64,000 nucleotides of DNA from Clostridia bacterium. Its GTDB lineage: Bacteria > Bacillota > Clostridia > Peptostreptococcales > Anaerovoracaceae. The notes below the pieces were generated by a model. That model ran no database searches. It was not told where the DNA came from and saw only the letters and a list, made by a program, of their open reading frames with translations. Positions 1 to 13,734 of the stretch are shown piece after piece (positions within the stretch are counted from its first letter, which is position 1; every line of letters starts with the position of its first letter). The translations under genes were made by a program, and so were the position numbers. Where the stretch lies: assembly GCA_902363595.1 (NCBI GenBank), contig CABJAP010000001.1, forward strand, positions 521,928-585,927. Reading direction: 5' to 3'.

Positions 1-122
1 ATCGCCGGCAGAGCCAGTTTGAAGAGGAGCCGGCCCACAGGCTGGCTTCCCAGCGCGGTTTCTTCTTTTGATTTTATATTCTGCAAGGATTTTCCCTTTT
101 TGACTCTTTCTTTGTCTTTCAT
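1..122 (-). CDS. MATE family efflux transporter, N-terminal fragment (cut by window edge)
   Basis: Only the first 40 codons are inside the window. The protein starts with a basic, charged tail (MKDKERVKKGKSL) and then reads ...GSQPVGRLLFKLALPA, which is the usual opening of a MATE Na+/H+-coupled drug exporter just before the first membrane helix. The ATG at 120-122 follows AGGAGTG with correct spacing, so the start is secure. Two other complete MATE genes occur in this window (31620 and 46857). The family call rests on a short stretch and on the position of the PVGRLL motif; the rest of the gene lies to the left. Confidence 0.7.
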   Translation of the reverse strand, partial: MKDKERVKKGKSLQNIKSKEETALGSQPVGRLLFKLALPA

Positions 123-320
123 GCTTGTCACTCCTGTTCCTTGATTATATTCCTCGACAGAATAGTCTATCACGAAACAAAGGCCGGGGCAACCCTGATG
201 CGTCTTTCAATCGCCTCATGCCTATGTATTTTTGAGGTATTTTTTGAATCTGTCCCAAACCCTTTTTGCCCGGACGAGAACGTTGTATAATAAGAAAAAA
301 CCATTATGGAGGCAAGTGTT

Positions 321-869
321 ATGAGCAAGCATATACTGATCCTTACAGGCAGCCCTCGCCAGGGGGGAAACAGCGATTTGATGGCGGATGCATTTATACG
401 GGGTGCGGAAAGCGCCGGCCACCAGGTCACGAAAATCCAGACCGCCCAGCTGAAGATAAACGGCTGTACTGCATGCGAATGCTGCTACAGCAGCGGCGGA
501 AAGGCTTGTGTACAGAATGATGATTTTAATCAAGTCGCCCAGGCAATGGAACAGGCGGATGCAATTGTGTTCTCCACGCCCATCTACTGGTTTACCTTCC
601 CTACATATTTAAAAGCCGTCATCGACAAATTTTATTCTTTCCTCATGGGGGAAAAGCAGCTACCCATCCGCGAGTCCATGCTGCTGGTCTGCGGCGAAAT
701 GGAGGAAAGCTCCATCTTTGACGGCATCATCAATTCCTATTCCCAGTCCATCTCCTATATGAACTGGCAGGACCGGGGCTGTTTTTATGTGACCGGAGTC
801 TGTAAAAAAGGCGACATTCTGGCTACAGGGAGTCTGGCCCAGATCGAAGAAATCGGCAGGAACTTCTAA
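321..869 (+). CDS. Flavodoxin-fold NAD(P)H-dependent FMN reductase / iron-sulfur flavoprotein-like
   Basis: Soluble 182-residue flavodoxin-fold oxidoreductase. The start MSKHILILTGSPRQGGNS is the FMN phosphate-binding loop (GSPRQGGNS, about residues 10-18), followed by a CTACECC cysteine cluster near residue 50 as in the NADPH-dependent FMN reductase / iron-sulfur flavoprotein family, and by the STPIYWFTFP flavin-contact segment near residue 90. An upstream in-frame ATG at 306 is rejected because it overlaps the Shine-Dalgarno GGAGG at 308-312; the ATG at 321 is correctly spaced. It stands alone, convergent with and overlapping by four bases the ATPase gene on the other strand. The physiological electron acceptor is unknown. 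A paralogue sits at 19831. Confidence 0.85.
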   Translation: MSKHILILTGSPRQGGNSDLMADAFIRGAESAGHQVTKIQTAQLKINGCTACECCYSSGGKACVQNDDFNQVAQAMEQADAIVFSTPIYWFTFPTYLKAVIDKFYSFLMGEKQLPIRESMLLVCGEMEESSIFDGIINSYSQSISYMNWQDRGCFYVTGVCKKGDILATGSLAQIEEIGRNF

Positions 870-2113
870 ATGTACCAGATTGGAAGCTGCAGGATATTTT
901 CTCTCAATGCTCCCGGCTGAGGACACAAACAGATAATCGCACCCATCCCACGTTTCTTATCTGGAATCTGATCTAAAATTGTAAAGGCGCTGGTCTGATC
1001 TGCGGATACCGAAGCGCCTTTTTTTATCTCAATGGGATAAAGGATGCCGTTGGCTTCAATGATGAGGTCGATTTCCCTTTCTGCCCGGCTATCTCCTTTT
1101 ATCTTCTTATCCCTTCCCCGATAATAGGATACACAATATCGATAGTCAATGCCTCTGTTTGAATAAGACTTGAGAATTTCCGAAATCACAAAGGTTTCAA
1201 AAAATGCTCCGCTCATGGCTCCATTGGCAAGGGTTTCGGGTGTCAGCCATCTCGTGAGATAGGCGGCCAGCCCGGTATCTCTGAAATACACTTTAGGTGT
1301 TTTTATTGCCCGTTTTAATACGGATGAAGTAAAGGGTTCTAAAAGATATATAATGCCGGAAGCTTCTAATACGGACATCCATCTTTTGATCGTAGTCTGA
1401 TCCTTTCCCACTTCATCGGCTATATTGGCATAGTTGACCATCTGGCCGGTTCTGGCAGCAACGGCAATCATGAATTGTCTGAAATCATCCAGATTCTGCA
1501 CCGCGGATAGCTCGCGCACGTCTCTCTCCAGATAAGTCTTTATATAGCTGGAAAAGAAAGCGGACCACTCCACCTGCGGATCCTGAAGTTCCGGATAACT
1601 CCCCCTGTGTATGATTTCCCATATATGATCAAAGGGCTTTACAGTCTTACTTCTCTCCTGCACATATTCCATAGTAGGGACAAAAGGCTCGTGAAACGCA
1701 TCCCCTTGTATTTCTCTCATGGATAAGCCTGAAAGCTCTATGATGCTCACCCAGCCGGATAAAGACTCCGACGCGTCTTCCATCAGCTCTAAAGGCTGTG
1801 AACCGGATAAGCAAAACAGCCCCCGCTCCTGGCTCTGGTCACATTTAATTTTGATATATCGGAAGAGCTCCGGAGTTCTTTGCACTTCGTCATAAATGAC
1901 AGGAGGAGGGTTCAGCATCATAAACATATTAGGCTGCTCTTTGGCCTGCTCTTCAACAAAAGGATCATCCATCGGCACATATTTCTTTTCTGGGAAAAGT
2001 TCTTTGAGCATGGTGGATTTTCCCGTCTGCCTTGCCCCTGTCACCAAGATGCTTTTAAAGGTCTTTTCAGACTGTAAAACGATATCTTCAATACTTCGCT
2101 TTATATATTTCAT
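866..2113 (-). CDS. AAA-type ATPase with DUF4143 C-terminal domain
   Basis: 415-residue P-loop ATPase of the AAA_14/DUF4143 family, cytoplasmic, function unknown (family members are often called archaeal-type or toxin-like ATPases). Walker A is GARQTGKST at about residues 26-34; the Walker B segment PPVIYDEVQ follows near 72. A DUF4143 region follows, including REIDLIIE and PIEIKKG, which resemble the acidic and lysine residues of a PD-(D/E)XK fold; whether it is a nuclease is inference. An ORF reading upstream to 2194 exists, but AAAGGAG at 2121-2127 places the start at the ATG at 2111-2113 (or 2117-2119). Single-gene unit with its own strong promoter and a perfect hairpin at the 5' end of the transcript. 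Confidence 0.88.
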   Translation of the reverse strand: MKYIKRSIEDIVLQSEKTFKSILVTGARQTGKSTMLKELFPEKKYVPMDDPFVEEQAKEQPNMFMMLNPPPVIYDEVQRTPELFRYIKIKCDQSQERGLFCLSGSQPLELMEDASESLSGWVSIIELSGLSMREIQGDAFHEPFVPTMEYVQERSKTVKPFDHIWEIIHRGSYPELQDPQVEWSAFFSSYIKTYLERDVRELSAVQNLDDFRQFMIAVAARTGQMVNYANIADEVGKDQTTIKRWMSVLEASGIIYLLEPFTSSVLKRAIKTPKVYFRDTGLAAYLTRWLTPETLANGAMSGAFFETFVISEILKSYSNRGIDYRYCVSYYRGRDKKIKGDSRAEREIDLIIEANGILYPIEIKKGASVSADQTSAFTILDQIPDKKRGMGAIICLCPQPGALRENILQLPIWYI

Positions 2114-2127
2114 ATTCATACTCCTTT

Positions 2128-2160
2128 CGACAAATCCAGCATATGATACTGGATTTGTCG
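2128..2160 (-). promoter_or_regulatory. Perfect 12-bp inverted repeat at the transcript 5' end of the DUF4143 ATPase gene
   Basis: CGACAAATCCAG (2128-2139) and CTGGATTTGTCG (2149-2160) are exact inverted copies separated by nine bases. The repeat begins at the predicted +1 and ends one base before the ribosome-binding site, so it can act as a DNA operator or as an RNA hairpin next to the ribosome-binding site. No U-tract follows, so it is not an intrinsic terminator. Confidence 0.75.
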
Positions 2161-2165
2161 TATAT

Positions 2166-2194
2166 ATCATACTATGAAATGATTGGCTTGTCAA
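2166..2194 (-). promoter_or_regulatory. Sigma-A promoter of the DUF4143 ATPase gene
   Basis: Reading the minus strand: -35 TTGACA (2189-2194), a 17-bp spacer, then -10 TATGAT (2166-2171). The -35 hexamer overlaps the stop codon of the DUF4340 gene. The predicted start of transcription (about 2159) falls on the first base of the inverted repeat. Confidence 0.8.
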
Positions 2195-3096
2195 AATTCC
2201 TCCAAAAGCTTTTCTGTATCCGAAACAAAGACCTTATAAACCATCTTTGACCCCTTCAGCTGGATATAGGCGTAAAGGGTATCGTTTTCCTGAAAAGTCG
2301 ACCCCATGTAAAAGACTTGTGTCTTTTCCTTACCGGAATCATCATAAACAGCGGTCATCTCTTTGCGTTTCTTCTGGTCGAGTCCATAATTGCTCAACTC
2401 CCCGGAGCTGGTTTTATAGTTGACGCAGGTATCCAGGGAAAGCCCTGACAGCTCGCTTCCATATTCGGACAGGTCCTCATCGTCGCCGGAGCAGCTGACC
2501 AGCGTCTTTCCTTTCTGTTTCACAGTAAAAGATTTCAGCGTCTTGCTGTCGATCTCGGGAAAGGTTTCTGTCTGAATCATGGATGCAGTGTCAAAGATCA
2601 GTGAATCGAGAATCGTACTGCTGACGGTGAAAACCGTAGTTCCCCCGTCTGCAGTCAGATAATAGTCAGTGCCTGTACTACTGCCGATGTCCACGCTCGT
2701 TTCCCTTCCTTTGCCATCAGTAAGTACAACGCTGAAGGCCGGTGATGCCAGCCCGTAATCTTCCATTGCATCCACGCCGGAAAGCTTGCGGTTTCCGGTT
2801 ATGGTACAGAAAGCGCTGACGGCTTCCTGCGCCAGGCTCTGTTTGAGAGGCAGCGCTTCATCCTGCGAATAATACCAGGTATTTTCCTTCTTTTCAAAGG
2901 TCACGGTATCGCTGCCATCCGTATAATCAATTTTTTCAATATCCTCCGTATTCAAATCGGTTGCCGCCAACTCTTTGGATGTTTTTTCCGTTTCTGCTTT
3001 ATAGCTCCAGCTGTTGTATGCTTTCAGGCCTGCGTACAATGCAAGCAGCACCGCCGCTGCCAGGAAAAGAACGGTGATCTGTTTTTTCTTTGTCAT
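2191..3096 (-). CDS. DUF4340 domain-containing membrane-anchored protein
   Basis: 301 residues: a short basic start, one N-terminal membrane segment (about residues 8-23, ending in ALYAGLKAYN), and an extracytoplasmic domain of repeated beta units containing WYYSQDEALPLKQ and DYGLASPAF, the pattern of DUF4340. In bacteria this family is found beside Gld-type ABC exporters, and here it is the last gene of such an operon, 16 bases after the GldG-like gene. Likely an accessory extracytoplasmic subunit; substrate unknown. GAGGGGATC precedes the ATG. Confidence 0.85.
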   Translation of the reverse strand: MTKKKQITVLFLAAAVLLALYAGLKAYNSWSYKAETEKTSKELAATDLNTEDIEKIDYTDGSDTVTFEKKENTWYYSQDEALPLKQSLAQEAVSAFCTITGNRKLSGVDAMEDYGLASPAFSVVLTDGKGRETSVDIGSSTGTDYYLTADGGTTVFTVSSTILDSLIFDTASMIQTETFPEIDSKTLKSFTVKQKGKTLVSCSGDDEDLSEYGSELSGLSLDTCVNYKTSSGELSNYGLDQKKRKEMTAVYDDSGKEKTQVFYMGSTFQENDTLYAYIQLKGSKMVYKVFVSDTEKLLEEF

Positions 3097-3112
3097 ATTG
3101 ATCCCCTCTTTC

Positions 3113-4579
3113 CTATGCTTTCCTGCGCTTCATCCACAATACAAAACCGATGATCAGCACGATAATTGGAATGATGAAAATCAGAACCACGCTGATATAG
3201 CCTCCGTACTGTACTGTATTGTACTGGACCTGCATGCTCTTGGCGTCGATGGACAGATTATCCACATCACCAATGGCAGATGTAATCGCATTCATAAATA
3301 AGGTTTTATTTTCCAGGCTTGCAAAGGCTTGCGTGATGGTTTCATCGATGATCGAATTGGATCCAAATACGGTCAAGCTTCCAGTAACGACTTGGTCATC
3401 GTCGTTCTCTGCCTGTGCAGTATAGGCTGCCACGGCTCCGATTTGAAAGGTCCCTTGTGTTTCACGATCCTCGGATACGGCATACCCGTCTTCCGAAGTC
3501 TGGAGGAAGGAGGAAACAGAGATTTCTTCACTATCCTCGCCCAATTCGAAGCCCCGGCTATTGGCCATAAGGACCATTCCCGTACTGAGGCCGCTGATCA
3601 TATCGCCGCTGCCGGTCACATTGGGGAAAATGTAATAATAGTTTCCCTGATAGCACCGCTGCATATCTGCGATATATCCCTCCTCCATGATGATTTTATA
3701 GTCAGCCAGAAGGTTGATCAAATTCCCGGTTTCCGGCCCCTGCTCTGCCATGAGCACCATCACTTTGCCGCCCTTTTTGATATATTGATCCAGCTTGCTG
3801 CTTTCCCCTTCCGTCAAATCCGACGAAGGTCCGTTGAGCAGAAGCAAGTCGCAGTCCTCTGGAATTGAATCGTCCATCAACAGATTGAGCGCTTCTGTCG
3901 TCATACCGGATTTGTTCATCAGATTTGTGATCGCCGAGGAAAGCTCCGCTTCTCCATGGCCGGAAGTAGTATAGATTTTCTTGGTTTCCCGGCCTGTTAC
4001 CTGATTGATGGCCCCGGTCAGCTGACCTTCCCCATCAAAGGATAATAAAGAGCTGTCGCTGCTGCCGGTATAATAATAAGACGTATCTTGCACCAAAATA
4101 TCGGAAAAGCTGATGGCCTCTGAAAGTCCCGTATCTTCACATTCCACGACAATCGTCTGTGCCTGAGTATCATATTGGGTGAGAACCGACGGATGAAGAA
4201 CCGGATCAATGGTAGTCATTTCAATATGTTTGGATAAAGACTTGTATTTCTCCAAAAAGGTTTTGAGCCGGTCATCGATGGAATCCTCTTCGGCGATCAC
4301 GGTGATCTTGATATCGTGATTCAGGTTCTTTAAAAAGGTCTTGCTGGTCTTGGATATTTCATAAATCCTGTTGGTGCTGATATCCAGATTGCGGACGGAA
4401 GAAGGCAGCTGACCTGCCATGAGATTGATGATGATGGCGATTACCAGGACCAGGATGATTGCAGCCACACTGTAGGCTCCGTGTCTGGATGTTAAGGTAG
4501 AGAACGAAGCTTTTACAGCATCTTTGCTCAAAAGATGTTTCTTTGGCTTTAATTTTTTTATGATCTTCATATGTTTCAT
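3113..4579 (-). CDS. GldG-like ABC transporter auxiliary protein
   Basis: 488 residues with an N-terminal membrane helix (about residues 37-57, ILVLVIAIIINLMAG), a large extracytoplasmic domain and a C-terminal helix ending LWMKRRKA, the layout of the GldG / ABC_transp_aux family. The stretch KTSKTFLKNLNHDIKITVIAE and the later MVLMAEQGPETGNLINLL are typical of this family. A GTG at 4588 is in frame, but AGGGGG lies eight bases before the ATG at 4577-4579, which is used here. Third gene of the Gld-type ABC operon, directly after the permease. In Bacteroidota the homologue serves gliding motility; in Firmicutes the substrate is unknown. Confidence 0.85.
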   Translation of the reverse strand: MKHMKIIKKLKPKKHLLSKDAVKASFSTLTSRHGAYSVAAIILVLVIAIIINLMAGQLPSSVRNLDISTNRIYEISKTSKTFLKNLNHDIKITVIAEEDSIDDRLKTFLEKYKSLSKHIEMTTIDPVLHPSVLTQYDTQAQTIVVECEDTGLSEAISFSDILVQDTSYYYTGSSDSSLLSFDGEGQLTGAINQVTGRETKKIYTTSGHGEAELSSAITNLMNKSGMTTEALNLLMDDSIPEDCDLLLLNGPSSDLTEGESSKLDQYIKKGGKVMVLMAEQGPETGNLINLLADYKIIMEEGYIADMQRCYQGNYYYIFPNVTGSGDMISGLSTGMVLMANSRGFELGEDSEEISVSSFLQTSEDGYAVSEDRETQGTFQIGAVAAYTAQAENDDDQVVTGSLTVFGSNSIIDETITQAFASLENKTLFMNAITSAIGDVDNLSIDAKSMQVQYNTVQYGGYISVVLIFIIPIIVLIIGFVLWMKRRKA

Positions 4580-4591
4580 TTGCTGCACCCC

Positions 4592-5458
4592 CTAACTCCA
4601 ACGCCTTTTTTCAATGCTCTGTACCGTCAGGAACCCGAATACAAAGATGACAGTTAGCTGCAAAATCACGCCAGTAACATCAAAAATTTGATTAAAAGCC
4701 GCATTGTTAAAACCCTGGGCCAGGTTCAGGCTGCCCAGCAGGTTCTTAATCAAGCCCTCAAAGAGTGATGAGTTGAAAATGCAAGTGATTATGGCTGCTG
4801 CAGCAATAAGAAATGCAATGGCAGAGCCGAGAAAGCGGTTTTTCGTCACGTGAACGATGACAGCCGCAAGTCCGAGGCCGATGGCCAGCACAAAGATAAA
4901 GTTGGCCGCTGCTCCGTCGGGCAAATAATCAGTCAGGTATTCCCAGATATAGAGGATGAGCGTCGCCGCAAAGGTACTGACCGCAGCGATGATCGGGCTT
5001 TCGGTCAAGCTGGAGAAGAACATGCCAATGGAAATAAAGGAGCATCCCAGCAGGAAAAATTGCAGAATGGAACAATAGTCCGCCAGCAGATAGGCATTTC
5101 CCTGCGCCTTGATAATCAATGGAAATAAGCAGAAAATCAGATTAGGAATCAGGTATACGGTACACATAGCTAAATATTTGCCGGCTACCACCTGGCGGAT
5201 TTTCACAGGTGAGGTAAGCAGCAGCTGATCGGTCCTGCTCTTTCTCTCCTCTGCAAAGGAGCGCATCGTCAGCACTGGAATCAACACCAGCAGTACCAGC
5301 ATGATCGCCGATAAGGTATAAGAAAAGTAGGGATAGCCCTGGTTGAGGTTATAGAGCATAAAATAAACCCCTGTAAAAGTGACAAGGAACGCGATCAGTG
5401 CATATCCGGTCATGGAACGAAAAAAAGAACTAAGCTCTTTTTTGTATACGGCTTTCAA
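4592..5458 (-). CDS. ABC-2 type permease (GldF-like)
   Basis: 288 residues, six predicted membrane helices, opening MKAVYKKELSSFFRSMTGY, which is the conserved amphipathic start of GldF/ABC-2 permeases, and the loop MRSFAEERKSRTDQLLLTSPV near residue 65 that faces the ATPase. Start codon is TTG at 5456-5458, preceded by GGGGGCGGAG, and it overlaps the ATPase gene by 29 bases, so translation is probably coupled. Forms the membrane channel of the exporter with the ATPase encoded upstream. Confidence 0.9.
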   Translation of the reverse strand: MKAVYKKELSSFFRSMTGYALIAFLVTFTGVYFMLYNLNQGYPYFSYTLSAIMLVLLVLIPVLTMRSFAEERKSRTDQLLLTSPVKIRQVVAGKYLAMCTVYLIPNLIFCLFPLIIKAQGNAYLLADYCSILQFFLLGCSFISIGMFFSSLTESPIIAAVSTFAATLILYIWEYLTDYLPDGAAANFIFVLAIGLGLAAVIVHVTKNRFLGSAIAFLIAAAAIITCIFNSSLFEGLIKNLLGSLNLAQGFNNAAFNQIFDVTGVILQLTVIFVFGFLTVQSIEKRRWS

Positions 5459-6398
5459 TTGCTCCGCCCCCTTCCTGTGTCAGCTTGAGATAGACATCTT
5501 CCAATGTGCCTTTTTCCTCATAAAGGGAAAGGAGCGGGTAACCTTCCCCGGCAAAAGCAAAGAATAAGGCTTCCCGGATGTCAGCTCCCTTTTGTGCAGT
5601 TACAGCCGCCTGATAAAGCTGCTCGTCTTTTTTCGTAAGCGTATAGTCTTTGACAAACCGTACCCGGGACAGAATCTCTTTAATTTTTTCCACCGATCCC
5701 CTGGCTTCCAGCTTAATGAGGCCGGTACCTAAGAACAGTCGTTCCAGATTTTCCGGCGTATCCTGGGCCACCAGCTTTCCCTTTGCGATGATAAGGATAT
5801 AGTCGCATAGCTCCTGGACTTCCGCTAGAATGTGGGAGCTGAGAATAACCGTATGATTTTTGGCCAGGCTGCGGATCAGCTGGCGAATCTCAATAATCTG
5901 CTGGGGATCCAGCCCTACCATGGGTTCATCCAAAATAATAGTTTCCGGAAATCCCAACATGGCCTGGGCCAGCCCTACTCTCTGCCTATAGCCTTTGGAT
6001 AAATTGGCAATCAGCCGGTCCGCGGTCTGGTTCAGTTTGATCCTGCCCATGATGACCTCGGTCTGTATCTTGCGCTCTTCTTTGGAAAGGCCCTTTAATT
6101 CCGCTGCAAAGTTCAGATATTCCCTCACGGTCATATCCATATAAACAGGCGGCATCTCCGGCAGATATCCCACGGATTTTTTGAATGCCTCCGGGTTTTT
6201 GAGTATATCAAAGCCGTTGATCGTCACCTCCCCTTCTGTGGCTGCCAGATAACCGGTCATAATATTCATGGTTGTACTCTTACCTGCTCCATTGGGACCT
6301 AAAAAGCCGTAAATCCTGCCCTTATCAATCGAAAAGTTCAGGTTGTCTACGGCTATGTGGCTGCCATACTTTTTTACAAGGTTTTTCACTACTATCAC
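5430..6398 (-). CDS. ABC transporter ATP-binding protein (GldA-like)
   Basis: 322-residue ABC ATPase and first gene of the operon. Walker A GPNGAGKST near residue 36, signature LSKGYRQRVGLAQAM near 135, Walker B TIILDEPMVGLDP near 155 and the H-loop SSH follow in order; a C-terminal extension of about 100 residues matches drug/Gld-type export ATPases. The GTG at 6396-6398 (then IVVKNLVKKYG) is chosen because AAGGAAGGAG lies upstream; an ATG at 6428 would add ten residues without a clear ribosome-binding site. Drives the permease encoded next. Confidence 0.92.
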   Translation of the reverse strand: MIVVKNLVKKYGSHIAVDNLNFSIDKGRIYGFLGPNGAGKSTTMNIMTGYLAATEGEVTINGFDILKNPEAFKKSVGYLPEMPPVYMDMTVREYLNFAAELKGLSKEERKIQTEVIMGRIKLNQTADRLIANLSKGYRQRVGLAQAMLGFPETIILDEPMVGLDPQQIIEIRQLIRSLAKNHTVILSSHILAEVQELCDYILIIAKGKLVAQDTPENLERLFLGTGLIKLEARGSVEKIKEILSRVRFVKDYTLTKKDEQLYQAAVTAQKGADIREALFFAFAGEGYPLLSLYEEKGTLEDVYLKLTQEGGGAIESRIQKRA

Positions 6399-6664
6399 GT
6401 TTTCATATTCTCCTTCCTTAGATTGCATCTGCCTAAGGATAGCGCTTTTATGTAAACTCCTGATAAAGATGATCCGTTGATTTGTTGTTGTTTTTGTGAA
6501 TGGATCTCCTTATTCACTCGGTGGAAAAAGTCCCATTTTGATGTACTTGCGCATCAAAACCAGTCTTTGCATCAGACATTGCAGTCTAAACCTGTAAAGG
6601 ATCGGCATCAGGGCTTTTTTATGCGAATCACGATATGAACTGTTAAAAGGAGATGACTTTATTT

Positions 6665-8338
6665 ATGGATCGAAAAAACATCTTAAACAATCGGGAAGAA
6701 TTTTCACTTAACCGCAGCGTTTATAAGGCTATGGGGTACAGCGACGAGGATTTGCAGCGTCCGGTTATCGGCATCGCCAATGCCTGGAGCACGCTGGTTC
6801 CAGGACACTTTAACCTGCGGCAAGTCTCTGACTATGTGAAGCAGGGAATCTATCGGGGCGGCGGGACTGCTGTTGAGTTTGGAACCATTGGCTGCTGCGA
6901 CGCGTTGGGGCAAGGACATGAAGGCATGCATTACATTCTGCCCTCCCGGGAGCTGATCGCCGGCAGCATCGAAGTAATGGCTCAGGCTCATAATTTGGCC
7001 GGGCTGGTCCTCCTCGGTTCCTGCGACAAAATAGTTCCGGGCATGTTAATGGCGGCAGCTCGCCTGGATATTCCCTGCATCCATCTTCCTGGCGGGCCGA
7101 TGCTGGGCGGCGAAGTAACCTTTCACGGCCGCAAATCCGATATGACTGCCATTGATGAGGGGCTGGGCGCTCTGCGCGCAGGAAAAATCAGCCGGGAAAC
7201 CTTTGAAAAACTGGAAGAAGGCTATTGTTCTTCCTGCGGTTCCTGTTCTTTTTACGGAACAGCCAATACCATGTGTACGTTGAGCGAGGCCCTTGGCATG
7301 GCCCTGCCCGGCGGCGCTATGACGCCGGCTGTGCATCCCGACCGTCTGAGGCTGGCGCAGAAAACGGGCGAGGCGATTTGTAATCTGGTGATAAACGAGA
7401 TCACAGCGAGAAACATCATTACCCGCGATGCCGTTGAAAATGCAGTCCGGATTTGCCTAGCTACCAGCGGATCAACCAATGCAGTCATGCATTTATCCGC
7501 CATCGCCTATGAAGCAGAGCTTGACATGAATGTCCTTAAAACCTTTGAAGCCTACAATAAGGAAACACCCGTTATTGCCCGCGTATATCCGGCCTGTAAT
7601 GCGGATATGAACGATTTGTTTCTTGCCGGCGGCGTTCCGCGAATTCAGCAAAATCTCCTGCCTCTGCTCCATGGCCAAGCAATGACCGTAACCGGCAGGC
7701 CGCTGTCAGAAAATCTGAATGCTTATGTTTACCGCTATGAAAAAAATCCTGACTGCATCACGGCCTTGGATGCTCCCTTTGAAAAACAAGGCGGCCTGCA
7801 GATTATGCGCGGAAATCTGGCGCCAATGACCGCGGTCACAAAACCAGGGGCCATCGATCCGTCCGCCCGCAGATTCACAGGTACGGCCCTATGCTTTGAT
7901 TGTGAAGAGGATGCCAATCGAGCAATCCTCAGCGGCTTCATTAAAGAAGGCACGGTTATCGTAATCCGCTACGAAGGCCCGAAAGGCGGTCCGGGGATGC
8001 GGGAAATGTATAAGTCTATGAAATATCTCAATGGGATGGGGCTGGCTAAAACCGCCGCTCTCATAACCGACGGTCGTTTTTCCGGAACCAACAACGGCTG
8101 TTTTGTCGGACATATTTCACCGGAGGCCGCCAGCGGCGGACCCCTGGCTATCGTACAGGACGGAGATATCATTGAAATCGACTGTATCAGTGGAAAGCTG
8201 GAACTGAAGGTCAGTGAAGAGGAAATCAAGCAACGCCTGAAGACCTGGGTTCCAAAAAAGCCCAAATTCAAGAAAGGATATCTGTCCACCTATGCCCGCA
8301 TGGTTTCTTCCGCTGCAGAAGGCGCGATTATTGGGTAG
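6665..8338 (+). CDS. ilvD: IlvD/Edd family dehydratase (dihydroxy-acid or sugar-acid dehydratase)
   Basis: 557-residue Fe-S dehydratase. Family signatures in order: the GTIGCCDALGQGHEGM region near residue 77, GSCDKIVPGMLMAA (about 117), GYCSSCGSCSFYGTANTMC (about 185), EGPKGGPGMREM (about 440) and TDGRFSG (about 470). The conserved cysteines that hold the cluster are present. No ilvC, ilvB/N or leu genes are nearby, so whether it acts on 2,3-dihydroxy-acids in valine/isoleucine synthesis or on sugar acids such as gluconate or xylonate is open. ATG at 6665 is used; the earlier ATG at 6653 touches the AAAAGGAG Shine-Dalgarno. Single gene, divergent from the ABC operon and closed by a strong terminator. 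Confidence 0.85.
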   Translation: MDRKNILNNREEFSLNRSVYKAMGYSDEDLQRPVIGIANAWSTLVPGHFNLRQVSDYVKQGIYRGGGTAVEFGTIGCCDALGQGHEGMHYILPSRELIAGSIEVMAQAHNLAGLVLLGSCDKIVPGMLMAAARLDIPCIHLPGGPMLGGEVTFHGRKSDMTAIDEGLGALRAGKISRETFEKLEEGYCSSCGSCSFYGTANTMCTLSEALGMALPGGAMTPAVHPDRLRLAQKTGEAICNLVINEITARNIITRDAVENAVRICLATSGSTNAVMHLSAIAYEAELDMNVLKTFEAYNKETPVIARVYPACNADMNDLFLAGGVPRIQQNLLPLLHGQAMTVTGRPLSENLNAYVYRYEKNPDCITALDAPFEKQGGLQIMRGNLAPMTAVTKPGAIDPSARRFTGTALCFDCEEDANRAILSGFIKEGTVIVIRYEGPKGGPGMREMYKSMKYLNGMGLAKTAALITDGRFSGTNNGCFVGHISPEAASGGPLAIVQDGDIIEIDCISGKLELKVSEEEIKQRLKTWVPKKPKFKKGYLSTYARMVSSAAEGAIIG

Positions 8339-8364
8339 TTTACGGCGCAGGTTTGATTGACAGC

Positions 8365-8405
8365 AAAAGACGGGGATGCCGTATGAATGCGGTGCCCCGT
8401 CTTTT
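8365..8405. terminator. Bidirectional intrinsic terminator between ilvD and the Mef-like gene
   Basis: AAAAGACGGGG (8365-8375) pairs perfectly with CCCCGTCTTTT (8395-8405); the A/T flanks give a U-run on both strands. It serves ilvD (+) and the convergent MFS gene (-). Confidence 0.9.
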
Positions 8406-8421
8406 CTTTGCTTCTTGTTGT

Positions 8422-9630
8422 TCATTTTCTGTCATAGAGTGCCATCACTGCCGTCACTGCCACGATCGCAACCCCAGAGACTAGAAACCAAAAGGCGACG
8501 CCCAGCTTTTCCGCGCAGGGCCCGGCGATGAGAAGCCCAAGGGGCATGGCCAGCGACATGACGCTTCCCAGTAGAGAAAAGGCCCGCCCCAGAGATTTGG
8601 GGTCTATAGTTTCCTGCATATAGGTCATGACCGGAAGGCCATAGACATTTCCACAGGCGCCCATGATCAGGCAAAGTCCCGCGAAAATCCAAAAGAAGCC
8701 GTAGCTTGCCGGCAGAATGCCGCAAAGCAGGGTTACTGCTCCCAGCCAGAAAATCCCCATTCTCGCCAGCCGCAGCCGATTGGTCTTTTGGAAGAACTGT
8801 CCAATGACCAGTGCCGATACCATCATCCCCGCCGCATAGAGGAATTCCACAATTCCCGCATGAAATGCATTTACCTTGAAATAACTGCTGCTCATAAGCG
8901 GATAAAGAGATGAAAGCGGCATAAAGAAGATCATACTGATCGCTGCATTGATCAACAGATGAAGCAGTTTTGCGTCTGCTCGAAAAACCGCGATTCCTTC
9001 CTGAAATTCCCGTTTGAAGTTGGGATATTCCGAGCTGTTTGATTTTGGTTCGGTGATTTTAATCACGGCTACAGTTGTACATGCCACCACTGCCCCCAAA
9101 AGGTCGGTCAGCAGGATCACCGGCATGGAAAATGCTCCGAAGAGAAATGCTCCGAATACCGGCCCCAGCATGAATGCTCCCGACTGCATGAACTGGCTCC
9201 AGCCGTTGGCCTTCATCAGCTCTTGCGAAGGTACCAGCATGGGGATCAGCGCCTGAATGGCCGGAGTATGGAAAACGCCGCCCACCGCCCTGATACCCAG
9301 CACCAGGCAAACCGACCATATTGGCGGACTGCCGATGAAAAATACGATTGCAAATGCTGCAGCTACCAGTCCCACAAAGAGATCGGCGGCAATTACGACT
9401 GTTTTTCGTTTGCGCCGGTCAATCCAGACACCTGCAAAGGGTCCCAAAATCAGCTGGGGCAAAAATGCCACCAGGCCTGCCAATGACATCATCAACGGCG
9501 AGTCCGTTTCAATCGCCATCCACCAGATCATGGCAAACTGCACAGCAGAGCTGCCAATCAGTGAAACAGTCTGTCCAATGGCGATCGTAAAAAATTTCTT
9601 CTTCCATTTTATTGGTTGTATTTCGTTCAT
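8422..9630 (-). CDS. Mef-like MFS macrolide/drug efflux transporter
   Basis: 402 residues, 12 predicted helices, MFS_3 family. It shares Mef(A)-type landmarks: the opening ...FFTIAIGQTVSLIGSSAVQFA, the A-loop GVWIDRRKRKT, IRAVGGVFHTPAIQAL near residue 115, and SLGRAFSLLGSVMSLAMPLG near 345. Mef proteins export 14- and 15-membered macrolides by proton antiport; substrate here is inference, strengthened by the macrolide-type attenuation leader upstream. AGGAGG stands five bases before the ATG. The 270-base 5' leader carries a leader peptide, alternative stems and a terminator, so expression is probably off until a ribosome-targeting drug is present. Confidence 0.85.
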   Translation of the reverse strand: MNEIQPIKWKKKFFTIAIGQTVSLIGSSAVQFAMIWWMAIETDSPLMMSLAGLVAFLPQLILGPFAGVWIDRRKRKTVVIAADLFVGLVAAAFAIVFFIGSPPIWSVCLVLGIRAVGGVFHTPAIQALIPMLVPSQELMKANGWSQFMQSGAFMLGPVFGAFLFGAFSMPVILLTDLLGAVVACTTVAVIKITEPKSNSSEYPNFKREFQEGIAVFRADAKLLHLLINAAISMIFFMPLSSLYPLMSSSYFKVNAFHAGIVEFLYAAGMMVSALVIGQFFQKTNRLRLARMGIFWLGAVTLLCGILPASYGFFWIFAGLCLIMGACGNVYGLPVMTYMQETIDPKSLGRAFSLLGSVMSLAMPLGLLIAGPCAEKLGVAFWFLVSGVAIVAVTAVMALYDRK

Positions 9631-9678
9631 ATATCCTCCTGTCTGTTTCTTGTATTGCTTTTAAAAAGCGGCTGGGCA

Positions 9679-9718
9679 AGAAAAAATGCAGACAGTTCCC
9701 ACCGGGACTTTGTCTGCA
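9679..9718 (-). terminator. Leader attenuator (intrinsic terminator) upstream of the Mef-like gene
   Basis: On the minus strand TGCAGACA (9718-9711) pairs with TGTCTGCA (9694-9687), extended inward by CCC/GGG with a bulge, and the stem is followed at once by TTTTTTCTT. It lies in the untranslated leader, about 50 bases before the gene, where it would stop transcription before the coding region. Confidence 0.82.
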
Positions 9719-9775
9719 CAAGAATAGACGATATGAACCCATAGATGCACATTTATGGGCAAAAGAATCGCATTG

Positions 9776-9865
9776 ATATCGTTCCATTCGAAAATAAGTA
9801 CAGCAAATCAGCTCACCGGCGTGAGTCTCTCATTTTTTATTGCTTCTTATTTAATACGAATGGAA
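9776..9865 (-). promoter_or_regulatory. Alternative pairing elements of the attenuation leader
   Basis: A perfect 9-bp inverted repeat links the leader-peptide codons (9857-9865) with 9782-9790. The downstream segment also contains ACGATAT (minus strand, 9776-9782), which can pair with ATATCGT (9728-9734) next to the terminator stem. These mutually exclusive pairings are what a ribosome-stalling switch needs; the exact fold is inference. Confidence 0.55.
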
Positions 9866-9873
9866 TAAATCAT
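9847..9873 (-). CDS. Leader peptide MIYSIRIK controlling the Mef-like exporter
   Basis: Eight-codon ORF with a near-perfect Shine-Dalgarno (GGGAGGTG, 9879-9886) five bases upstream, starting about 25 bases after the predicted transcription start. The end Ser-Ile-Arg-Ile-Lys parallels Ser-Met-Arg-Leu-Arg/Lys of the known macrolide-arrest leaders (MTASMRLR of mef/mel elements), that is the basic-X-basic motif at which drug-bound ribosomes stall. Codons 3-6 lie in a sequence that can pair with a segment 75 bases downstream, so a stalled ribosome would change the leader fold. Very small, but RBS, position and motif agree. Confidence 0.75.
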   Translation of the reverse strand: MIYSIRIK

Positions 9874-9904
9874 CAATACACCTCCCTTTGTTTTAGCTTA
9901 GAAA

Positions 9905-9933
9905 ACTATACTATTGTCATGTCCATTTGTCAA
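9905..9933 (-). promoter_or_regulatory. Sigma-A promoter of the Mef-like leader
   Basis: Minus strand: TTGACA (9928-9933), 17-bp spacer, TATAGT (9905-9910). Transcription should begin near 9898, giving a leader of about 270 bases before the transporter start. Confidence 0.85.
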
Positions 9934-9941
9934 GCATAATT

Positions 9942-10937
9942 TTAGGAGCTGGCGCTGCTGGCGGACGCCGCTGCCGTTACGGTGACGATGCAGCATATGC
10001 ACATAGTCTGAAGGGCCACCAGATAATCCACCACCATGGATTGAAGTGCAGTGCCGCTGATGCGGCTTTCTTCGCCGTCTCCCAGTTCATTTGTAATATA
10101 GATGCCCGCAGCCATCATGGTCCGCTGACATTTTTCCATAGACAGAGAGCCGAAACCCTTCTTCGTCTTTAAATAATCAGAAGCTTCCACGATCTCATCG
10201 GCCAGGAGATCGGCAGGCTGCCTGGACACGGAAAGCAGCGCCAGCAGAGCCGTCATATCGTGGGATTTGAAGTTGTATCCCTTTTCCCGAAAGGCCTGAT
10301 GAATATTGATTGCCCGTTCGCACAAAGAAATATCATCCACATTAAAAAGCAGGATAATATTGGCAATGGATTGAAGCTGGTTTCCCCTGGCGATCCAATT
10401 GCGGAGTAGTTCTTCGATTCTGCTGATCCGCTGCTGGAATTCGGGCACTGAAATCCCGGAAGCCGCCAGCATAGCCGCCGTCACATAATCGTCTTGACCA
10501 GTGGCAAAGGGATGGATTTGTTTCATCGCCCGATACAGCATTTTCATTTTTGCCGCGGCAGCCGGAAAATCATCCGTTATCCTCGCCATATGCAGAGCCG
10601 CCGCCACTAAATGATTGCACGCAGAAAATCCCGCTTCACGAAGCGTATGGTAGCATTCCTGCATGTTGGCGAAAAAGGCTTCCGGCTCCTCCTCGGCAGC
10701 CATCTGCCATGCGACCACAGGCAGCATTTCTCCTTTAATGGTCGATAAAAAACCTGCATTTTCCTTGATATAAGTTCTGCATGCCTTGTACCTTTCCGTA
10801 TCCGCCTGTCTGCCGCTGCAGACGCACTGGAGCGCGCACAGCTTATCCATCATGGTGCTGTCCCACTTGGTAACCGATTTGTAGATTTTGCTGTATTCGG
10901 CAAATTGGTCGATGGATGTTTTCAGTTCCGTTCTCAT
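9942..10937 (-). CDS. DUF4003 family protein
   Basis: 331-residue soluble, mostly helical protein of the DUF4003 family, whose function is unknown. Recognised from the overall pattern, including AALHMARITDDFPAAAAKMKMLYRAMKQ and YVTAAMLAASGI, which recur in this family of Firmicute proteins. The C-terminus is a low-complexity Ala/Ser-rich tail (TVTAAASASSASS). The ATG at 10935-10937 is chosen because AAAGGAG lies six bases upstream; an ATG 24 bases further up is less well placed. Ends just upstream of the Mef-like promoter, same strand. Confidence 0.8.
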   Translation of the reverse strand: MRTELKTSIDQFAEYSKIYKSVTKWDSTMMDKLCALQCVCSGRQADTERYKACRTYIKENAGFLSTIKGEMLPVVAWQMAAEEEPEAFFANMQECYHTLREAGFSACNHLVAAALHMARITDDFPAAAAKMKMLYRAMKQIHPFATGQDDYVTAAMLAASGISVPEFQQRISRIEELLRNWIARGNQLQSIANIILLFNVDDISLCERAINIHQAFREKGYNFKSHDMTALLALLSVSRQPADLLADEIVEASDYLKTKKGFGSLSMEKCQRTMMAAGIYITNELGDGEESRISGTALQSMVVDYLVALQTMCICCIVTVTAAASASSASS

Positions 10938-10978
10938 TGTTTTCTCCTTTGTTCGTTTCATAATCCGATTTCCCAGAC

Positions 10979-11557
10979 CTATCGCCTTCCCAAATAACGA
11001 AATACTTTTTGTTTGTATTCCATATATGGGATGCCAAAGGCACCCTCAAGAAATCGTTCTTCCTGTAAAATCTGCAAATGCAGCATAATCGCTGCAAATA
11101 TGGTAAAAACCAGCAACACTGGATTAAAAAACATTAGCAAAATTCCGGTATACATAAAGTCGAACCCTAAAAAAGCCGGGTTGCGGCTGTATTGATAAAC
11201 GCCTTCGGTAATCAGTTCGGTTTTATCCTTTTCTGGAATGCCGGCTCTCCAGCTGTCTTTCATCGACCAAACCGTTACGGCAAAGAGCAGAACCCCCAGC
11301 ATTGCCAACAAAAATCCTGTAAACCTGGCGTTCCGCGGCAGCCAGCTATAATCGAAGGCAATGGAAAGCAGCTGCACGAACAAAATGCCGTAAGTCGCAA
11401 TCCCCATGATTCGTTCTATTCGGTATTGTTTTTTTTCCTTTTTTCCTTTAGCGATCTGATTCGTTTTAATGCCCTGTTTTTTCTGTGCAAACAGCTTTCC
11501 AAAATAAACTCCATAAAAGGAAAGCAATGCGAAAACCGCCAGTAATTGTTCCATCAT
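10979..11557 (-). CDS. Isoprenylcysteine carboxyl methyltransferase (ICMT/PEMT-like) membrane protein
   Basis: 192 residues, about five membrane helices. The C-terminal half carries VYQYSRNPAFLG and EERFLEGAFGIPYMEYKQKVFRYL, the SAM-binding signature of the ICMT/phospholipid methyltransferase (PEMT) superfamily. Bacterial members are SAM-dependent methyltransferases of unknown substrate, or NnrU-like. AAGGCGG precedes the ATG. It ends 41 bases before the start of DUF4003 on the same strand, so the two may be co-transcribed. Confidence 0.82.
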   Translation of the reverse strand: MMEQLLAVFALLSFYGVYFGKLFAQKKQGIKTNQIAKGKKEKKQYRIERIMGIATYGILFVQLLSIAFDYSWLPRNARFTGFLLAMLGVLLFAVTVWSMKDSWRAGIPEKDKTELITEGVYQYSRNPAFLGFDFMYTGILLMFFNPVLLVFTIFAAIMLHLQILQEERFLEGAFGIPYMEYKQKVFRYLGRR

Positions 11558-11591
11558 AGATTTTTATCCGCCTTTCCTCCGCGTCTTGCTC

Positions 11592-12497
11592 TCACCTCGC
11601 CGAATGTTTCTTAATATCAATGCGCCCTTCTGAAATCAGCAGTCCTGCCAGGGTCAGAAGAATTCCCAGTATCATTAATCCCGTTATCTTTTCATGGAGC
11701 ACCACCACAGAGGTAACCACCGTGATAACCGGACAGATATAAATGTAAATGCTGGTTTTGACAGCTCCCACAGTCTTGACCGCAAAGTTCCAGGTTACGA
11801 AACAGACTGCTGAAGCGCCCAGCCCCAGAAAGAGAATATTGAACAGGTATACCGGGCTTGCAAGCCGGGACAGTTCTCCATGAAAATCAAAGAGCAACAG
11901 GGCCGGCACCATAAATAACAGTCCGTAGATAAAGGTTCTTCTGGTGGTCTGAACGGTGGGATACCCGTAGCTGCTGATTTTCTTGGTCAGCAGGGAGTAA
12001 AACGCCCACACCAGCGCCGCGGTCACGGCCAGCAAATCTCCCATTGGATTGAGCTTAAGCGCGCTTCCATTAAAGCTGATGAGGCAGATTCCGGCCATCG
12101 CCGCCGCAAAGCCAATAAAAAAGCTGGTTTTCAGCTTTTCCTCTCCTTTCATGAAGAGGTGGGTTAATATCCCTGTGAAGAAGGGAGCCACGGACAATAT
12201 GACACCTACGTTGGAGGCCATCGTATAGGTCAGCGCAATATTCTCCAGCAGATAATACAGGCAGACGCCGCATAGTCCGGCAAGGGCAAAGGTAACTTCC
12301 TGTTTGCGTTCTGTCAGTCGAAGTCTGCGTGGATACACCAGGATCAACGCGGCCAGTCCCAGAAGAAAACGGAAGAACAAGATTTCGATGGGCGTAAAAT
12401 CCGTTAAAAGTATCTTTGTCGAGATAAAGGTCGTTCCCCATACAAGGATTGTAAACAAAGCTGCTCCATGGCCTTTCATCGCTGGATCAACTGTCAT
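11592..12497 (-). CDS. EamA/DMT family transporter
   Basis: 301 residues, ten predicted helices arranged as two EamA repeats (about residues 10-140 and 150-290). TILVWGTTFISTKILL near residue 16 and the second-repeat ...VWAFYSLLTKKI are typical. Drug/metabolite exporters of this kind move amino acids, nucleosides or amines; the substrate cannot be read from sequence. The ATG overlaps the TGA of the AraC gene (ATGA), with AGGAGG in the AraC coding end, so the two genes are translationally coupled and the regulator probably controls this exporter. Confidence 0.9.
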   Translation of the reverse strand: MTVDPAMKGHGAALFTILVWGTTFISTKILLTDFTPIEILFFRFLLGLAALILVYPRRLRLTERKQEVTFALAGLCGVCLYYLLENIALTYTMASNVGVILSVAPFFTGILTHLFMKGEEKLKTSFFIGFAAAMAGICLISFNGSALKLNPMGDLLAVTAALVWAFYSLLTKKISSYGYPTVQTTRRTFIYGLLFMVPALLLFDFHGELSRLASPVYLFNILFLGLGASAVCFVTWNFAVKTVGAVKTSIYIYICPVITVVTSVVVLHEKITGLMILGILLTLAGLLISEGRIDIKKHSAR

Positions 12498-13339
12498 CGC
12501 TTGCCTCCTGCTTGCCTGTTTTCGGTGAATATATTTTGATATTGTTTGGGTGTCAGCCCGATGAAGCCTTTAAAGGCGTTGGTAAAATGGCTTTGATCTG
12601 AAAATCCGGCAAGTCCGGCTGCCTCAATCGGTGATGTGCCTCTTTCCAACATCCTCTTCGCCTCCTGAATACGGATCGATTGCAAATATCGGTATGGCGA
12701 TACACCGGCTTGCCGGGTAAAGGACCGCACCAGATAGGACTTGCTGATTTTGGCCACATCCGCCAATTCATCCAGGGTAATGGCGGTGCTGTAATTTTTC
12801 TCCATATAATCACATAGCTTTTGAATTTCTTCACTTGGGCCTTCCGGTATTCTGTCCGCCTGACAGGAAAGAAAGTCTTTTAACATCTGCTCGATCAAGA
12901 GATAAAACAGTTCTTCCTTTTCCATTTTCGGCAGGTCGTCCACAATGGCCTGGTAAAGGGCGTCAACCTGTCCGCTCAATTCGCATTGAACGACTGCGGT
13001 TGGTTCAAAACGCGGCGTCAGATTCCGGCCGGTAATGTCCATTGCAGCCTGCCTCATCCGTTCTTCCGGGATATTAAGCGCTCGGTATTCCAGGCATTCC
13101 TCGTTAATCGGCGCGCAGTGGTGGCTGTCCTTTGGATTGAACAAAACCAGATCACCGGCCGCCAGCAAGTATTCGTTTCCCTTGCACCACAGTTTCCTCC
13201 GGCCTCCCTCGATAAATCCGATTACATAATAATCGTGAAAATGGTTGGGGAATTTTTGAACGATGCCGCTGAGCCTGTATGCTTCTATCTTCAAATCTTT
13301 ATCGTAATATACAAAACGTTGTTCCTGATGACATAGCAT
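12494..13339 (-). CDS. AraC family transcriptional regulator
   Basis: 281 residues: an N-terminal cupin sensor (NHFHDYYVIGFIEGG near residue 32, AGDLVLFNPKDSHHC near 62) and a C-terminal double helix-turn-helix (LDELADVAKISKSYLVRSF; PIEAAGLAGFSDQSHFTNAFKGFIGLTPKQYQ), the complete AraC layout. Start at ATG 13337-13339 with GAGGAGGT seven bases upstream; a longer frame to 13378 lacks a ribosome-binding site. Cotranscribed with the EamA exporter. An inverted repeat ATATGCT...AGCATAT (13403-13427) just upstream could be its own operator. Confidence 0.92.
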   Translation of the reverse strand: MLCHQEQRFVYYDKDLKIEAYRLSGIVQKFPNHFHDYYVIGFIEGGRRKLWCKGNEYLLAAGDLVLFNPKDSHHCAPINEECLEYRALNIPEERMRQAAMDITGRNLTPRFEPTAVVQCELSGQVDALYQAIVDDLPKMEKEELFYLLIEQMLKDFLSCQADRIPEGPSEEIQKLCDYMEKNYSTAITLDELADVAKISKSYLVRSFTRQAGVSPYRYLQSIRIQEAKRMLERGTSPIEAAGLAGFSDQSHFTNAFKGFIGLTPKQYQNIFTENRQAGGKR

Positions 13340-13734
13340 GCCGTTACCTCCTCTTTTTAGATAACCGGATTGTATCATGGAGACACAGCAAATTCTTGTA
13401 AAATATGCTCCTTTTGCCGAAGCATATAGGATAGTATATCATTTCTTGCAGTGTATTTTCATTTTTTTTTCAATTTCTATTCGAAATTGGGCCTTATCGG
13501 CATGTTTGTCTAAAACGCAGCAATCCGGTTCCAAAACTGCTGGAACCGGATTGCGGAAAATTTTAAAATCATATTGATTTTTTACGCAAAGTTGTGGGTT
13601 AGCGGGGTCTCAAATTGAAAAAATGGAGAGCTTCCTGCTCCGAGACTGATTCAATGAGGTTCAATCGTTGAAAAATGCGTAAATTCCGCATATATTTTTT
13701 GTTTTTTACGCATAAACTTACCCGCTGATCAGAA
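13340..13734. other. Intergenic region upstream of araC-type gene
   Basis: No gene is supported here. It contains an inverted repeat ATATGCT/AGCATAT (13403-13409, 13421-13427), an extended -10 on the minus strand (TGATATACT) suitable for the AraC gene, the hairpin at 13520-13554, and a second inverted repeat ATGCGTAAA (13675-13683)/TTTACGCAT (13705-13713). The rest is AT-rich and unremarkable. Confidence 0.6.
13520..13554. terminator. Perfect 14-bp hairpin, probable terminator of the former flavodoxin operon
   Basis: GCAATCCGGTTCCA (13520-13533) and TGGAACCGGATTGC (13541-13554) pair perfectly around a 7-base loop. On the minus strand TGCGTTTTA follows, a weak U-tract. It lies 180 bases beyond the displaced 3' end of the flavodoxin gene and would also end the MFS transcript. 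Confidence 0.6.

Follow-up and report, generated by a model that had tools for sequence, protein, structure and literature searches.

In a stretch of 64,000 nucleotides (nt) from a Clostridia bacterium of the family Anaerovoracaceae (contig CABJAP010000001.1, positions 521,928 to 585,927; hereafter the window), a gene for a Mef-like exporter is preceded by a leader RNA which very probably belongs to the mef(A)/mel family of ribosome-mediated transcription attenuators and, from its place on a clostridial chromosome, turns the pump on in response to a macrolide-type drug. The parts of this element, their conservation, the covariation of the leader helix, the complementarity to the terminator and the homology to the mef(A) leader were all observed. 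An attenuator of the macrolide-stalling type upstream of a Mef-like exporter had been proposed in an initial annotation made from the sequence alone, and this proposal is now backed by conservation, by covariation and by the match of an RNA model to the mef(A) leader. The window carries a homologue of the mef(A)/mel attenuator on a chromosome, of interest above all for the wider family to which it leads: the RNA family of the mef(A) switch is wider than its present description.

Elements of the leader region

The promoter, the Shine-Dalgarno sequences, the leader open reading frame (ORF), the long-range pairing, the terminator and the exporter gene all lie on the minus strand, in the places where the initial annotation had put them:

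9905-9933, minus strand: promoter of the sigma-70 type, TTGACA-17-TATAGT (-35 at 9933-9928, 17-nt spacer, -10 at 9910-9905)
9881-9886, minus strand: Shine-Dalgarno sequence GGGAGG of the leader ORF, unchanged in Anaerovorax odorimutans
9847-9873, minus strand: leader ORF MIYSIRIK (ATG 9873-9871, stop TAA 9849-9847)
9857-9865, minus strand: 5′ arm of helix H1, UUCCAUUCG, leader codons 3-6 (fold, covariation)
9782-9790, minus strand: 3′ arm of helix H1, CGAAUGGAA (fold, covariation)
9846-9852, minus strand: 5′ arm of helix H2, AAAUAAG, codon 8, stop and next base (fold)
9792-9798, minus strand: 3′ arm of helix H2, CUUAUUU (fold)
9798-9809, minus strand: switch strand GAUUUGCUGUAC, partly paired with AGCAA (9844-9840) when the leader is free
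9688-9717, minus strand: intrinsic terminator stem-loop followed by AUUUUUU (fold; stem and U-tract kept in A. odorimutans)
9635-9640, minus strand: Shine-Dalgarno sequence AGGAGG of the Mef-like gene
8422-9630, minus strand: Mef-like MFS (DHA3) exporter of 402 amino acids (NCBIfam MefB/MefA, Pfam MFS_1)

The promoter agrees with the consensus in 11 of 12 letters, with the caveat that the two promoter-like sites found here are no excess over chance shuffles (1.3 +/- 1.2 expected). Near the end of the leader peptide, codons 6-8 encode R-I-K and thus an Arg/Lys-X-Arg/Lys (+X+) motif; the initial annotation had likened the end S-I-R-I-K to the S-M-R-L-R of the mef/mel leader. The proposed 9-bp pairing of the leader codons is exact (UUCCAUUCG at 9865-9857 with CGAAUGGAA at 9790-9782); in the RNA fold it continues via AAAUAAG/CUUAUUU and then AGCAA/UUGCU, and it is held within a structured core of about 118 nt (9889-9772). 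RNA structure prediction, suggested as a check, gave -79.8 kcal/mol for the 268-nt leader RNA, compared to -59.7 +/- 4.3 in 200 dinucleotide shuffles, none of which was as low (z -4.65). The terminator with its U-tract lies 129 nt past the leader stop; it was not listed by a simple terminator scan because its stem is interrupted, and is visible in the RNA fold.

Conservation and covariation of the leader RNA

Compared with A. odorimutans, the Shine-Dalgarno sequence, the leader, the H1 and H2 strands, the terminator stem and the U-tract are nearly unchanged, and divergence is seen in the upper loop and over much of the DNA from the terminator to the gene. The search in relatives recovered the layout of the window attenuator in 10 other loci (numbered here as L001 and so on). 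Among 77 Mef-like loci, a few of which have little upstream DNA, +X+ leaders in this layout are MFYSIRIK (L002), MYFSIRLR (L005), MYLSIRLR (L009), MYYSIRLR (L010), MIYSIRLR (L025) and MHYIRIR (L011); counting 13 enterococcal loci with shorter spacing, +X+ leaders lie upstream of the Mef-like gene in 19 of the 77. A Mef-like gene at E<=1e-80 was present in 10 of 296 genomes of a family sample, and three of these (L090-L092; Mef about 40% identical) bear the leader MYSVRLR. The peptide pattern SD-ATG-x-Y-S-I-R-[hydrophobic]-[K/R]-TAA, where SD is a Shine-Dalgarno sequence, occurred in one of 391 class-sample genomes, that of A. odorimutans, at the same gene. A looser pattern was found in two of 250 genomes of another family sample, once at the mef-like gene of the centre genome and once as a chance MYGSIRMN. 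Such a peptide-pattern scan is too narrow as a census, and an RNA covariance model was used instead. Other short ORFs with R-x-R/K upstream of mef-like genes, for example in L003, L013 and L014, lack the layout and were excluded. An ORF encoding MYSVRLK without a Shine-Dalgarno sequence was also seen upstream of a mef-like gene of Ignavibacteria (L060, 2860-2890).

In an alignment of 11 cores, 86% of the H1 and H2 cells are paired, compared to 36-46% with the partners slid, and 7 of the 10 H1 pairs show changes on both sides. No shuffle out of 500 matched the measures for paired cells, both-side changes and covariation, and 13 of 500 matched the count of pair types. Individual changes illustrate this pattern: in L091 and L092 an Ile to Val codon change accompanies a change from A-U to G-C in the helix, and in L025 a silent change of an Ile codon goes with U-A to C-G. 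In L001 (2763-2877), a metagenome-assembled genome with a 73% identical Mef and the closest relative after A. odorimutans among those with DNA examined, the leader reads MQTICLK; its Arg codon has become Cys, and this change is compensated by a base in the other H1 arm, so that the motif is lost and the pairing kept. With 37 sequences, both-side changes were found in 13 of 16 pairs (0/500 shuffles), in an alignment made to the covariance model and thus biased toward it.

These replacements also bear on the question whether the leader senses isoleucine supply. Three of the eight leader codons (M-I-Y-S-I-R-I-K) are Ile, and a branched-chain IlvD-like gene lies next door (6653-8338), as might be expected of a classical amino-acid attenuator. 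Relatives with the same RNA, however, carry other residues at the Ile positions (Phe, Val, Leu, Met or Tyr), A. odorimutans lacks an ilvD-like gene at this place yet keeps the attenuator, and the regulated gene is an exporter. Attenuation by Ile starvation, to which we give hardly any probability, was rejected on the replacement of Ile in relatives and on the synteny with A. odorimutans.

Homology to the mef(A) leader and to RF02862

In four comparison loci, a covariance model built from the 11 cores with no mobile mef(A) included (R1) had a single match, at nt 1159-1283 of L106 (49.7 bits, E 7.2e-9), upstream of the mef(A) gene (start 1486) of phage phi1207.3. R1 gave no match at mef(B) (L107), at the enterococcal plasmid locus L108 or at L105, and its weak matches in the enterococcal loci L038, L057, L033, L034 and L030 (E 0.016-0.68) were not counted.

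Conversely, the Rfam family RF02862, 'Enterococcus sRNA 1300', matches the window over its whole length at 9870-9679 (41.2 bits, E 3.7e-8). At the gathering threshold Rfam finds nothing in the window and RF02862 is visible in E-value mode only; because its score is below gathering (41.2 vs 48.8 bits), we call the window RNA a homologue of RF02862 rather than a formal member. The threshold is passed at the mef(A) leader of L106 (254 bits; 1178-1424) and at L090 (84.1 bits), and L002 (41.0) and L091 (39.7) remain below it. Read by eye, the RF02862 consensus opens inside MTASMRLR, encoding TASMRLR followed by a stop. Since this consensus starts in the TASMRLR codons and the mef(A) leader is matched with 254 bits, RF02862, although filed as a small RNA (sRNA), looks like the mef attenuator and thus like a cis-acting element. 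Among 105 Enterococcaceae genomes scanned with RF02862, L105 alone matched, weakly (27 bits), and nothing exceeded the cut-off, and 14 control genomes gave no match; the family is rare among species representatives, like an accessory element.

The entry's name suggests an alternative, that the leader RNA, once terminated, acts in trans as an sRNA in its own right. RF02862 is typed 'Gene; sRNA', and sRNA_1300 was detected on northern blots of Enterococcus faecium with sizes that agree with the predicted 230 nt (PMC5593968). A terminated attenuator, however, would yield just such an RNA; the RF02862 match runs from the interior of the leader ORF to the terminator in the window and, by position, also before mef(A); and a Mef-type gene lies behind 28 of the 56 attenuators described below. 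We consider an action in trans highly improbable. The sRNA has been reported to lie within a 60-kb genomic island, and the words mef, msr, macrolide and leader do not occur in the main text of that report (PMC5593968); no text linking RF02862 or sRNA_1300 to the mef attenuator was found in those parts of the literature that were searched.

Both R1 and RF02862 speak for homology between the window attenuator and the mef(A)/mel attenuator, and against an independent invention. The initial annotation had considered an independent chromosomal case: the chromosomal location stands, and an independent evolution of the leader was rejected on the RNA homology to mef(A).

Proposed switch and folding of the terminator

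In our model of the window attenuator, the leader would be translated fast when no drug is present, and its codons would then pair with 9790-9782 to form H1 and H2. With the switch strand thus held, the terminator at 9717-9688 would form and most transcripts would stop before the exporter gene. A macrolide-type drug in the exit tunnel would stall the ribosome at R-I-K; by analogy with the RLR motif of ErmDL (PMC8298421), Ile7 is predicted to occupy the P site and Lys8 the A site. The stalled ribosome would cover the 5′ arm of H1 and free the switch strand and its neighbour, which would pair with the terminator, allowing RNA polymerase to read into the Mef-like gene. The stalling, the drug, the read-through and the substrate of the pump are those parts of the model that we infer.

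The switch strand GAUUUGCUGUAC is, once released, complementary to the 5′ arm of the terminator (duplex test in the window, p=0.048). Seven of 11 loci gave p<=0.05, and the values combined by Fisher's method amount to 5e-8 for all 11 loci and 2e-5 for the nine without near-duplicates; L005 (0.35), L011 (0.07), L001 (0.13) and L090 (0.57) were above 0.05. In the main folding test, the RNA was blocked all the way to a ribosome placed at the penultimate codon. The predicted probability of the terminator then fell from 1.00 to 0.25-0.32 in the window, to 0.001 in L002, 0.000 in L010, 0.37 in L025 and about 0 in L090 and L091, and it was below 0.5 in 7 of 10 tested, mef(A) included. The mef(A) leader, a positive control whose attenuation has been demonstrated experimentally (PMC4335068), gave 0.000 in this set-up and stayed within 0.000-0.002. 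With the footprint of the ribosome alone blocked, 4 of 8 tested were below 0.5 (L025, L090, L091 and mef(A)). With a mixed outcome over these tests, the predicted folds agree with a switch and are not proof of it.

Control could also act mainly on translation, or in a mixed mode. In all 13 enterococcal mef-like loci (L027-L035, L037, L038, L047 and L057), a short-spaced +X+ leader (MCASMRL[KR]..., MSASMRLK... or MYSIRLR...) precedes the tblastn match by 83-156 nt. L027 and L038, the two inspected by eye, show no terminator and have a possible hairpin near the Shine-Dalgarno sequence of the gene, which may point to translational attenuation in these loci. The window itself, by contrast, has a terminator with a U-tract 129 nt past the leader stop, and this terminator is kept in A. 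odorimutans despite much divergence between terminator and gene. For the window, we regard mainly translational or mixed control as improbable.

The exporter gene and its chromosomal context

The best curated relatives of the exporter are MefB (331 bits) and MefA (322 bits) of NCBIfam, below the cut-offs for these alleles (800 and 675, respectively), and because these are not reached we name the gene Mef-like. The protein shares 40.5% of its residues with the Mef(A) encoded by phage phi1207.3 and 41.4% with the plasmid-encoded Mef(B). Its nearest named homologue, 88% identical, is that of A. odorimutans (Anaerovoracaceae, Clostridia), and close homologues were also found at 92, 84 and 81% identity (P0001, P0003 and P0004).

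The window locus is chromosomal. Positions 1-13407 are collinear with A. odorimutans in three blocks of 74-76% DNA identity. The ilvD-like (dihydroxy-acid dehydratase) gene, which is convergent with the exporter gene and adjoins it, and an AAA/DUF4143 gene at 866-2170 have no counterpart in the collinear DNA of A. odorimutans. Neither a transposase or integrase nor an ABC-F partner was found by Pfam among 27 of the 52 listed window ORFs (E<=0.001 for some, E<=1e-10 for the rest). A mobile element at this locus is unsupported, given the collinearity and the lack of a transposase or integrase among the ORFs scanned.

A wider family of leaders

Genome scans with R1 gave matches in 12 of 291 genomes of the class sample, 10 of 292 of the A. 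odorimutans family and 29 of 299 of the family of genome G002, three samples that overlap. The places from these scans and the Mef-based loci together amount to 56 places that were read, with G002:C13 left out and L085, which has the same sequence as L039, counted once. L120 (MSSLQSKIHR) was dismissed as a chance match, with no mef found by tblastn.

The +X+ motif is present in 40 of the 56 leaders and, by distinct peptide, in 13 of 22. Outside the model-building set it occurs in 30 of 45, and 21 of these 30 are near-identical MLHSMRIR places. Leaders without it are MSSIR, MSAIR, MSAIRK, MSFIR, MSSIC, MYLR, MQTICLK, MFSIHLR and MFLFV; in L158, His replaces the Arg of the motif. Leaders ending in MSSIR, MSFIR or MSSIC form a subtype of their own (L086, L087, L088, L155, L156, L159, L161 and L162), in which the RNA frame is retained and +X+ is gone, perhaps with arrest at the stop codon or another signal. 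The RNA frame is more strictly conserved than the leader peptide. According to the initial annotation, free change of the leader among relatives would refute the attenuator. Part of this was seen, since the MQTICLK leader of L001 and the MSSIR/MSAIR/MSSIC subtype lose +X+; the pairing with the leader codons is nonetheless kept in L001. Leaders without +X+ may be tuned to other drugs, may arrest at termination or may have decayed. Within the literature covered, a peptide-string search found no report of these leader peptides.

Mef-type genes, called by NCBIfam, by blastp or tblastn to the window protein or, in L115-L117, by ORF start, share the family with other genes. An RlmN/Cfr-like radical SAM gene lies downstream at 22 of the 56 places (L111, L112, L113, L114, L125, L126, L140-L154 and L167); 16 were called by blastp to L111, and L112, L113 and L125 by ORF start. 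The radical SAM genes of L111, L114 and L126 are under both the RlmN and the Cfr cut-offs of NCBIfam. The 22 RlmN/Cfr-like loci carry the leader MLHSMRIR (MLHSIRIRK in L114). Over the aligned length, the RlmN-like protein reaches 100% identity at eight of the 16 loci compared and about 85% at the remaining eight, and all four genomes checked hold a further RlmN above the cut-off. In two genomes the gene lies in a common 3.5-kb block (9078-12582 of L168; 96.5% identical) whose flanks differ; both genomes have a gene for a serine recombinase close by, and one has a gene for a relaxase. No leaders for cfr or RlmN were evident in titles and abstract starts among the literature matches listed.

Genes for RNHCP-domain proteins follow at four places (three by Pfam, L164 by eye). 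Leaders MSAIR or MSAIRK are found upstream of them in L163-L166, and L165 and L166 each have two RNHCP-domain genes in tandem. RNHCP proteins are possible ribosome-drug response proteins; a literature search pairing RNHCP with antibiotic found nothing. A GNAT gene is downstream at one place (L162), and another (L124) has an apparent Mef start without an intact gene.

On a tree of Mef-like proteins made with a quick method (84 rows, L056 left out), rows with a +X+ attenuator are clustered, with 7 changes compared to a shuffled mean of 14 and none of 500 shuffles as low; for rows with an attenuator without +X+, 4 changes were counted and 2 of 500 shuffles were as low. The tree places the Mef(A) clade far from the window clade. 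The attenuator may have spread by common descent with losses, or by transfer of the leader.

Taken together, the mef attenuator could be one branch of a widespread clostridial family of riboregulators that sense drugs in the ribosome tunnel through fast-diversifying leaders (YSIRIK, YSVRLR, HSMRIR, TASMRLR) and drive Mef, mobile RlmN/Cfr-like and RNHCP genes, with sRNA 1300 as such a leader and with termination arrest required for the MSSIR/MSAIR subtype, whose peptides end at Arg. For this reading as a whole, we see the chances of its being right or wrong as evenly balanced.

Weighing of the model

Several observations weigh against our model of a macrolide-responsive attenuator. RF02862 matches only 4 of 12 other loci, and 8 give no match at E<=0.01, including L001, L005, L009, L010, L011 and L025. 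The +X+ motif is absent from 16 of the 56 leaders, L001 included, and for 48 of the 84 tree rows no such leader was found. The proposed substrate of the pump is drawn from a Mef identity of 40-41%. In the folding tests, the terminator stays at 1.0 in L005, L009 and L011 with all 5′ RNA blocked. The window terminator retains a probability of 0.66 when the RNA is folded through to the gene start, of 0.78 when the ribosome footprint alone is blocked and of 0.82 with the ribosome one codon further on; with the footprint alone, it remains at 0.99-1.0 in L002, L009 and L010. Moreover, L010 and L090 lose the terminator at most ribosome positions, without clear codon specificity.

The signal, in particular, might differ: a stalling attenuator could answer to another tunnel-binding drug, a natural peptide or a metabolite instead of clinical macrolides. 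The motif is variable, with Ile, Leu, Val or Met around it, Cys (L001) or His (L158) for Arg and the MSSIR/MSAIR subtype, and the family also lies upstream of RlmN/Cfr-like and RNHCP genes; furthermore, the erythromycin arrest of ErmDL is reported to be less motif-dependent than its telithromycin arrest (PMC8298421). The window peptide, however, retains +X+, the gene is nearest to Mef(B) and Mef(A) among the curated families, and the RNA is homologous to the mef(A) leader. On balance, such another signal seems rather unlikely to us, and a response to macrolide-type drugs remains the reading that we prefer.

Implications

That the switch of the mobile mef/mel macrolide-resistance elements occurs in anaerobic Clostridia, at a chromosomal locus with conserved synteny, suggests a chromosomal reservoir. 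R1 finds further genes that are probably induced by ribosome-targeting drugs, for some of which no report of drug induction was found in the literature searched. If the wider family holds true, RlmN/Cfr-like methyltransferase (23S rRNA) and RNHCP genes would be marked as ribosome-drug response genes. Moreover, we suggest that the orphan Rfam 'sRNA' RF02862 be re-described as a cis-acting leader.

Comparison with known systems

The closest counterpart is the mef(A)/mef(E)-mel(msr(D)) attenuator, whose leader, terminator and antiterminator have been tested by mutation in mef(E)/mel and which was already reported on mobile elements of Clostridium (Chancey 2015; PMC4335068). The window shares with it an 8-codon +X+ leader, a long-range leader helix, a predicted distal antiterminator, an intrinsic terminator and a Mef gene, as well as the RNA homology (E 7e-9). 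It differs in being chromosomal, in its leader (MIYSIRIK vs MTASMRLR), in having no ABC-F partner among the 27 ORFs scanned and in an exporter that is only 40.5% identical. The RF02862 entry is classed as an sRNA of Enterococcus and not as a leader, and the window RNA matches it below gathering.

The +X+ motif is a known macrolide/ketolide arrest motif of resistance leaders, and ErmDL stalls with the X residue in the P site (PMC8298421). The ErmDL and ErmK leaders (MTHSMRLR...) share the S-x-R-x-R/K ending (PMC4335068) and the +X+ motif with the window peptide, a likeness of the peptides; the gene they regulate is a methyltransferase, unlike the exporter of the window. In MsrDL (MYLIFM), a macrolide-dependent stall prevents formation of an intrinsic terminator, as would be the outcome in the window, whereas the peptide is another one, the stall is at the stop codon and the regulated gene encodes an ABC-F protein (PMC10314930).

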